Part shown: positions 51,339 to 55,055 of the stretch, piece by piece
Position numbering within the stretch: position 1 is the stretch's first letter
Layout: every line of letters begins with the position of its first letter
Source of the DNA: Luteitalea pratensis
Lineage (GTDB): Bacteria; Acidobacteriota; Vicinamibacteria; Vicinamibacterales; Vicinamibacteraceae
NCBI RefSeq assembly: GCF_001618865.1
Contig: NZ_CP015136.1
Coordinates: 4,995,001 to 5,059,000 of the forward strand
Reading direction: 5' to 3'
DNA length: 64,000 nt
Position numbers and translations under genes: made by a program
The notes under the pieces: model-generated
The model's input: the letters and a program-made list of their open reading frames with translations, nothing else
What the model was told of the DNA's origin: nothing
Databases searched by the model: none

Positions 51339-51502
51339 CGCTCCTCACTCCAAGGTAAACACGGGGTATCCCGAGTTTGACGCGCCCAGGTGGAGTTTGG
51401 TGATTATGAACGCGCAGTGAGCTGGGACGAATCGGCAACGCCCCGGTGCGCCGGGGTACGAGCCGCTGGCGCGACCGGGGGTGTCGGGCCACAGGGAATC
51501 GC

Positions 51503-51508
51503 GCTATC
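51503..51508 (+). promoter_or_regulatory. Candidate -10 of purC
   Basis: TATCCT in the divergent gap, 34 bases before the GTG start of purC. A -35 match is not evident. The 200-base gap holds no other gene. Confidence 0.3.
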
Positions 51509-51542
51509 CTGTCGAGCCGTCCGTTCGGGAAGGTACCATCCA

Positions 51543-52451
51543 GTGTCCGCGTCCCCACTCCTCTCCACTCCGGCCATCGGCCTGCCGCTCCTCAGGCGCG
51601 GCAAGGTTCGCGACGTCTTCGAGGCCGGGGACGACCAGCTGCTGATCGTCGCCACGGACCGCATTTCCGCGTTCGATCACGTACTGGGATCGGGCATCCC
51701 GGACAAGGGCCGGATCCTCACGCAGCTGTCGGCATTCTGGTTCGGGCGTCTCGGTGAGGTGACGCCCCACCACGTGCTGTCGACCGATGTCGCCGACTTC
51801 CCCGCCGCCACGCGCTCGGCCGCGGCGGATTTGGCCGGCCGCTCGATGCTGGTGCGCCGGACCCGGCCGCTGCCGGTGGAATGCGTTGCGCGCGGCTATC
51901 TCGAGGGCTCGGGCTGGAAGGACTACCAGGCGACGGGCACGCTGTGCGGACACCACCTGCCGGCAGGCCTGCGGCAGTGCGATCAGCTACCGGCCCCGCT
52001 GTTCACGCCAGCCACGAAGGCAGAGTCCGGGCATGACGAGAACATCACCGAAGCGCAGGCCGCGGCCGTCCTCGGCCCGGACGTTTTCAGCCAGGTGAAG
52101 GCGCTCACGCTGGCGCTCTACACGGCAGGCGCGGCGCATGCCGCCGCACGCGGCATCCTGGTGGCCGACACGAAGTTCGAGTTCGGGCTCGTCGACCAGA
52201 ATGGCACGGCACGGGTGATTCTCATCGACGAGGTCCTGACGCCGGACTCGTCTCGCTTCTGGCCAGCGGACCAGTACGCGCCGGGCGGCCCCCAGCCCAG
52301 CTTCGACAAGCAGTTCGTCCGCGAGTACCTCGAGCGGATCGCGTGGAACAAGCAGCCGCCGGTCCCGTCGCTGCCAGACGATGTAGTCGCGCGTACGCGC
52401 GACAAGTACCTGGACGCCTTTCGTCGCCTGACCGGCGCCGATCTCGCCTGA
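51543..52451 (+). CDS. purC: SAICAR synthetase PurC
   Basis: Purine synthesis enzyme joining CAIR and aspartate. LRRGKVRDVFEAG (about 16-28), ATDRISAFDHVLGSGIPDKG (about 37-56), LVRRTRPLPVECVARGYLEGSGWKDY (about 103-128), KAESGHDENIT, and TKFEFGL near 211 with IDEVLTPDSSRFWP. 302 residues, the longer yeast-like type. The GTG start fits the first family residues; the frame is open upstream into non-homologous sequence. Confidence 0.94.
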   Translation: MSASPLLSTPAIGLPLLRRGKVRDVFEAGDDQLLIVATDRISAFDHVLGSGIPDKGRILTQLSAFWFGRLGEVTPHHVLSTDVADFPAATRSAAADLAGRSMLVRRTRPLPVECVARGYLEGSGWKDYQATGTLCGHHLPAGLRQCDQLPAPLFTPATKAESGHDENITEAQAAAVLGPDVFSQVKALTLALYTAGAAHAAARGILVADTKFEFGLVDQNGTARVILIDEVLTPDSSRFWPADQYAPGGPQPSFDKQFVREYLERIAWNKQPPVPSLPDDVVARTRDKYLDAFRRLTGADLA

Positions 52452-52463
52452 TCGAGCCTGCCC

Positions 52464-52673
52464 GTGGCCATGCATCGCGACCTCGAGCGGCTCGTTGCCG
52501 AAATGGTGGAGAACGGCATCCACTACGGCGACGCCGTGCGCGAATTCGAGCGCCGTTTCCTCGAGGTGGCGCTGCGGCGGACCGACGGCAGCATCACCCG
52601 CTGCGCCGCCCTGACCGGCCTGCACCGCAACACCCTGACGCGCAAGATCGCCGAACACGGGCTCAAGGGGTAA
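52464..52673 (+). CDS. Small Fis-type HTH protein
   Basis: 69 residues, almost entirely a Fis/HTH_8 domain. DAVREFERRFLEVALRRTDGSITRCAALTGLHRNTLTRKIAEHGL resembles the C-terminal DNA-binding domain of NtrC-family regulators and Fis. No receiver or AAA+ domain is attached. It follows purC by 12 bases and precedes the groESL promoter region. Could be a nucleoid-type regulator. Start is GTG at 52464 or ATG at 52470. Confidence 0.8.
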   Translation: MAMHRDLERLVAEMVENGIHYGDAVREFERRFLEVALRRTDGSITRCAALTGLHRNTLTRKIAEHGLKG

Positions 52674-52681
52674 CTGGCGAT

Positions 52682-52858: not shown

Positions 52859-52885
52859 TTGGCACTCTCCCCCCTTGACTGCCAA
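52859..52885. promoter_or_regulatory. CIRCE-like operator 1 upstream of groES
   Basis: TTGGCACTC, 9-base spacer, GACTGCCAA. This has the arm and spacer length of CIRCE (TTAGCACTC-N9-GAGTGCTAA), the HrcA operator. The left arm matches the canonical sequence at 8 of 9 positions, the right at 7 of 9. It overlaps the -35 box. The two arms differ from perfect symmetry by one base. Confidence 0.75.
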
Positions 52886-52902
52886 CACGGACGGTCTATA
52901 CT
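52875..52902 (+). promoter_or_regulatory. groESL promoter
   Basis: TTGACT at 52875-52880 and TATACT at 52897-52902, spaced by 16 bases, form the best sigma-70-type promoter in the window. Transcription would start near 52909, giving a leader of about 100 bases before groES. Confidence 0.75.
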
Positions 52903-52928
52903 TGGCAGTCGTCCACACCGACTGCCAA
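52902..52928. promoter_or_regulatory. CIRCE-like operator 2 over the groESL start site
   Basis: TTGGCAGTC, spacer of 9 bases, GACTGCCAA: perfectly symmetric arms (10 bp when the flanking C and G are counted). It begins at the last base of the -10 and covers the expected start site. Centre-to-centre distance to operator 1 is 43 bp, about four helical turns. Confidence 0.78.
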
Positions 52929-55014: not shown

Positions 55015-55055
55015 AAAGGGCCCCGTGAGAGCAATCTCGCGGGGCCCTTTTCTTT
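55015..55055 (+). terminator. Rho-independent terminator of groESL
   Basis: AAAGGGCCCCGTGAGA, 4-base loop, TCTCGCGGGGCCCTTT, then TCTTT. The stem is 16 bp with a single wobble pair and is followed by a T-rich tail. This is the clearest intrinsic terminator in the window. Confidence 0.9.

Follow-up and report, generated by a model that had tools for sequence, protein, structure and literature searches.

The promoter of groESL, the main chaperone operon of Luteitalea pratensis (Acidobacteriota, Vicinamibacteria), carries two inverted repeats built like CIRCE, the operator of HrcA in class I heat-shock control, but spelled differently. This raises the question of whether they are read by an HrcA of altered specificity, perhaps through looping or cooperative binding, or represent the familiar system with a relaxed operator. 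The window analysed here is the whole stretch of 64,000 nucleotides that spans positions 4995001-5059000 of a single contig of 7,480,314 bases. Its open reading frames and their profile matches place groES and groEL in a single operon (Table 1). A short ORF between groES and a SAICAR-synthetase-like ORF (51390-52451) resembles by eye the C-terminal helix-turn-helix of a Fis-type protein (52467-52674), and 3' of groEL a GC-rich inverted repeat followed by TTTT (55016-55053) has, again by eye, the look of a terminator.

Table 1. Features of the groESL locus, in coordinates of the window.
Feature	Position	Strand	Basis and remarks
Element 1 (upstream), TTGGCACTC-N9-GACTGCCAA, overlapping the -35	52859..52885	+	0 mismatches; position at the -35 conserved in families f1, f2, f3, f8 and f16
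-35 hexamer TTGACT, sigma-70 type, within element 1	52875..52880	+	sequence; relatives
-10 hexamer TATACT, whose last base is the first T of element 2	52897..52902	+	sequence; same layout in relatives
Element 2 (downstream, primary), TTGGCAGTC-N9-GACTGCCAA, covering the probable start site	52902..52928	+	0 mismatches; an element here is shared by almost every groES promoter of the class
groES, 95 aa	53009..53296	+	PF00166, 1.2e-33; NCBIfam GroES profile over its cut-off
groEL, 541 aa	53313..54938	+	TIGR02348, 870.9 bits (cut-off 582)

The original prediction had described two 9-N9-9 elements of CIRCE type around this promoter, with arms of the form TTGGCA[C/G]TC, and both match that form exactly. 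Element 2 is a perfect palindrome, while element 1 is imperfect, arm position 7 being C in its left half-site and G in its right one. The promoter itself reads TTGACT-N16-TATACT, its 16-bp spacer following a -35 hexamer that begins two bases before the end of the spacer of element 1 and takes its other four bases from the start of that element's right arm. As had been claimed, one element thus lies over the -35 and the other over the start of transcription, which, judging from the position of the -10, probably falls within element 2. The predicted distance of 43 bp likewise stood: the centres, at 52872 and 52915, are 4.1 helical turns apart, and 17 bp separate the two elements. The outward-facing repeat GACTGCCAA-N16-TTGGCAGTC, also pointed out in the prediction, is present in the sequence but arises automatically wherever two such palindromes stand in tandem, and was therefore dropped as a feature in its own right.

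Both elements have the architecture by which CIRCE is recognized, a 9-bp inverted repeat with a 9-bp spacer and a TTRGCA core, and they occupy one of its expected locations, the promoters of the groESL and/or hrcA operons. They deviate at positions 3 and 7 from the strict consensus TTAGCACTC / GAGTGCTAA. Shuffled versions of the window contained a mean of 0.07 matches to the motif even when three mismatches were allowed. In the whole 7.48-Mb genome, the only matches at up to three mismatches were the two groESL elements and a third at hrcA, TTGGCACTC-N9-GACTGCTAA, which is one base off the TTGGCA[C/G]TC motif. A reversed control pattern gave six matches in the same genome at the same threshold, and the genuine sites thus stand out by their 0, 0 and 1 mismatches together with their positions at groESL and hrcA.

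The genome encodes a single HrcA (one PF01628 match), which passes the TIGR00331 profile with 261.9 bits against a curated cut-off of 197.2 over residues 18-352. The sole solved HrcA found, 1stz, a homologue from T. maritima, was the single sequence match in the PDB. The hrcA operon (L005:2367-5123) consists of hrcA, grpE and dnaJ, without dnaK, which is located about 80 kb away (L343). Since a search for CIRCE at dnaK yielded none, the best candidate having six mismatches, dnaK seems not to be part of the HrcA regulon. At hrcA itself (L005:2328-2369), the terminal A of the element is the A of the ATG start codon. The same coincidence occurs at 26 of 49 hrcA loci of Vicinamibacterales, and at most of the others the ATG lies within 7 bases of the CIRCE; a TATAAT-like -10 is found a few bases upstream of the overlapping element. 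With a -10 so near, the whole leader would be operator, leaving no space for a Shine-Dalgarno site, which raises the question of whether hrcA mRNA might be translated from a near-leaderless start in this order.

Close relatives retain the motif at both loci, as the original prediction needed them to do: five genomes of the genus, this one among them, were examined, and each has the twin elements at groESL as well as the motif at hrcA. Across the class, HrcA was detected in 166 of 193 genomes and the motif, at up to two mismatches, in 124 of 193. Families f17 and f18 (13 genomes) lack the motif at this threshold, and those of their genomes that appear among the HrcA results listed are all without HrcA. 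From across the class, regions upstream of groES and hrcA loci were sampled, 80 of each, and those of L. pratensis were added (81 each). When any base was accepted at arm position 7 and up to two mismatches were allowed, an element was present in 77 of the groES regions, where it occupies the same promoter position, and at 50 of the hrcA loci. Families f10, f14, f15, f16 and f19 have HrcA but no clear element at hrcA, and in f6 (G079, G080) and G066 an HrcA is accompanied by a groES promoter without recognizable CIRCE.

These 127 elements show what is tolerated at arm position 7. C or G occupies 248 of the 254 half-sites, A six and T none, and the two half-sites of an element are mixed in 75 cases, both G in 34 and both C in 12. 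The order has thus not exchanged C for G: either base is accepted at position 7, and A and T are not, as might be the case if a G-C pair is contacted there through the minor groove. The mixed elements also bear on the idea that the repeats serve as hairpins or thermometers of the mRNA, which could be entertained given that the hrcA element overlaps a start codon. In an RNA stem, they would bring two Cs or two Gs face to face at position 7 (75 of 127 elements) and thereby break a base pair, which indicates that what is conserved is recognition of DNA by a protein and not an RNA structure; moreover, with the probable groES start site inside element 2, neither hairpin at groESL would be fully transcribed. 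A function in RNA is therefore extremely improbable, and was ruled out on the mispairing of position 7 in most elements.

Whether the spelling betrays a lineage-specific HrcA that reads TTGGCA[C/G]TC in place of TTAGCACTC, as the original prediction proposed, can be judged from the distribution of the variants. In a sample of the phylum, 70 of 180 genomes from other classes had exact C/C sites against one of 19 Vicinamibacteria, and exact G/G sites were found in 12 of 46 Vicinamibacteria against 12 of 350 others. The class thus differs in operator spelling, but it shares the G/G form with other groups. At least 117 stretches of named genomes carry this form, with Clostridia, Chloroflexi, Lysobacteraceae and Patescibacteria among the groups represented in those listed. 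Most of the 80 G-form stretches listed sit just upstream of groES or hrcA; when 20 neighbours of the remaining sites were searched against Pfam, many proved to be heat-shock genes, coding for RpoH-size sigma factors (in Lysobacteraceae and Competibacteraceae), HSP90, HSP20, ClpB and FtsH. Among the listed sites, the form precedes groESL, hrcA, rpoH, htpG, hsp20 or clpB, and this recurrence before heat-shock genes of other phyla means that the strict spelling does not define CIRCE. A literature search on the G-form spelling returned only primers and unrelated sequences, and no paper linking CIRCE and HrcA to Acidobacteria was found in a search that covered few subscription journals.

On the side of the protein, residue 11 of the recognition-helix stretch is D or E in 26 of 30 HrcA proteins, drawn from 29 genomes of other classes and one of Vicinamibacteria (G005), while R, Q or another residue stands there in most Vicinamibacterales. 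A change from D/E to R/Q was promising as the determinant of spelling within the Acidobacteriota but failed in outgroups. Thus, G286 (L321) combines R at residue 11 with canonical C/C sites, and several G/G genomes of other phyla (L202, L249, L272) have E; the eight scorable genomes of the class with an acidic residue are split, five having G and three C only. The comparison of recognition residues called for by the prediction has thus brought to light no residue of HrcA that tracks the G spelling. While the scarcity of C/C sites, the frequency of G/G sites and the non-acidic residue 11 favor a repressor of altered specificity, C and G are mixed within operators and throughout the order, so that the code is not shifted, and the G form is used in several other phyla. 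This proposal is therefore weakened and, in the form put forward, unsupported and very unlikely; the spelling is a mild, recurrent variation and not a new code.

The twin arrangement was examined in 76 groES promoters, the element beside the -10 being taken as primary and a second one sought 30-60 bp upstream. A second element with at most three mismatches was present in 38 of them; no promoter had four to six mismatches, and the other 38 all had seven or more. Shuffled sequences reach three mismatches or fewer with a probability of 0.0002 each, which, together with the near absence of matches from shuffled windows, rules out a chance origin of the elements. The 38 twins fall in five families, with spacings mostly of 41-43 or about 52 bp: 43 bp in f1 (5 of 6 promoters) and f8 (3 of 3), 41 or 42 bp in f3 (14 of 17), 51-54 bp with one of 34 bp in f2 (10 of 10) and 39-45 bp in f16 (6 of 8). 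Families f4 and f9-f15 are without the upstream element. The twin layout is thus conserved in part of the class, and outside it, among 80 G-form loci listed, only one weak case was seen (4 mismatches, -23 bp). Another kind of doubling occurs in f12 (L084-L088) and in part of f4 (L071), where a second CIRCE lies 23 bp downstream of the first and shares an arm with it; in the resulting TTAGCAGTC-N9-GAGTGCTAACAGTC-N9-GACTGCCAG, the right arm of the first element of the groESL operator is reused.

In all 38 twins, a TTGAC overlaps or abuts the upstream element and lies 27-33 bp (mostly 27) before the primary one, in four registers relative to the upstream element. In f1 and f8, the GAC of that element's right arm forms part of it; in f3, it costs the right arm its first G; in f16, it lies within the spacer; and in f2, it takes the place of the end of the right arm. 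One might read the degraded right arms of f3 and f2, and the lack of an upstream element in f4 and f9-f15, as signs that this element is idle or vestigial and that the downstream one alone is functional. There is a precedent, in that the groESL1 operon of Myxococcus xanthus has a CIRCE1 and a CIRCE2 of which HrcA binds only the former (PMC9040617), and the upstream site could thus be weak or idle here as well. On the other hand, the element has 0-1 mismatches in all five f1 twins and at most three in all 38 promoters, with nothing between three and seven, as is expected under selection. A vestigial upstream element is thus decidedly unlikely.

The spacings also bear on the prediction that the two sites act together. 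Most are near four or five helical turns, and if one spacing is taken per family, random spacings of 27-54 bp would be equally in phase with a probability of 0.004-0.04. The near-whole-turn spacing in most families suggests looped or cooperative repression of groESL, in which two HrcA dimers on the same helical face would bind with cooperativity or form a loop of the 17 bp that separate their sites. The sacrifice of at least one arm base to the -35 in f3 and f2, instead of a register without cost, points in the same direction. Against this, two spacings are exceptions to the phasing (34 bp in G039 and 45 bp in G010) and the independent families are few, the overlap with the -35 alone already limits the spacing, a second element is missing from half of the promoters, and cooperativity between HrcA dimers was not found in the literature searched. 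Interaction between the dimers is therefore a tentative possibility. A logic specific to the class, in which position 7 would be read as a 'G-C pair, either way round' and phased, cooperative twins would bracket the groESL promoter, keeping their register through several shifts of the -35, is unlikely.

The reading that we favor, with a probability of about 0.87, is ordinary repression by HrcA through two CIRCE operators, relaxed at position 7, of which the upstream one is auxiliary. HrcA control is favored by the exact sites at groESL and the site with one mismatch at hrcA, with none elsewhere in the genome at up to three mismatches. From the parts that are observed, namely the sites, the promoter layout, their conservation, the HrcA gene and its co-occurrence with the motif, we infer binding, the start site, repression, its release by heat and an additive role of the second site. 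The single HrcA of the genome would act on both groESL elements. In unstressed cells, one dimer on the downstream element would cover the start site and the last part of the -10, while another, bound to the upstream element, would cover the -35, so that RNA polymerase would be kept off this sigma-70-type promoter; the upstream element would reinforce repression as an auxiliary operator. Upon heat shock, HrcA activity would be lost and the promoter released. The same HrcA would repress its own operon through the third element, and the HrcA proteins of Vicinamibacterales would tolerate either C or G at position 7 of the arm.

The G-form sites of other phyla include some that may extend the HrcA regulon. 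In relatives of Lysobacteraceae and in Competibacteraceae, such a site lies directly upstream of the gene of an RpoH-size sigma factor (L213, L233, L237, L244, L245), which suggests that HrcA controls the heat-shock sigma factor in these bacteria; a CIRCE at rpoH has been reported for Geobacter sulfurreducens (PMC545781). Metagenome-assembled genomes of a member of the Holophagales (L268) and of an actinomycete (L262) have one 36-39 bp upstream of the gene of a zinc-ribbon protein (PF09723), a possible new HrcA target, and the sequence of this site recurs in family f58 of the phylum. Regulon predictions based on the TTAGCACTC consensus miss the sites of the Vicinamibacteria and many G-form sites elsewhere, whereas a TTRGCASTC model would recover both. 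Related promoters, with their succession of -35 registers, constitute a natural set for asking whether HrcA dimers interact across a promoter.

The system described here shares with HrcA/CIRCE control of groESL and hrcA (TTAGCACTC-N9-GAGTGCTAA) the 9-N9-9 architecture, the targets, the position at the promoter and start site, and an equivalog of HrcA. It differs at arm position 7, which is C in the canonical CIRCE and C or G here. Arm position 3 is A or G, and the G was already known, e.g., in Desulfovibrio, for which TTGGCACTC arms have been listed as an ordinary CIRCE spelling (PMC545781). The HrcA motif obtained by ChIP-seq in Waddlia chondrophila, TAGCA-N15-TGCTAA, is less constrained, with positions 7-9 free (PMC4989314), whereas position 7 is limited to C or G here. 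Twin elements on one chaperone promoter also have precedents. In the dnaK operon of Lactococcus lactis, two CIRCE overlap the promoter (PMC1676014), as they do here at groESL, and M. xanthus groESL1 likewise has two, although a sigma-32 promoter is involved in that case. The HrcA/CIRCE system and twin CIRCE are thus known from elsewhere, and the best reading is that the Vicinamibacteria add to them a motif of relaxed spelling and, in some families, a conserved operator of auxiliary role.
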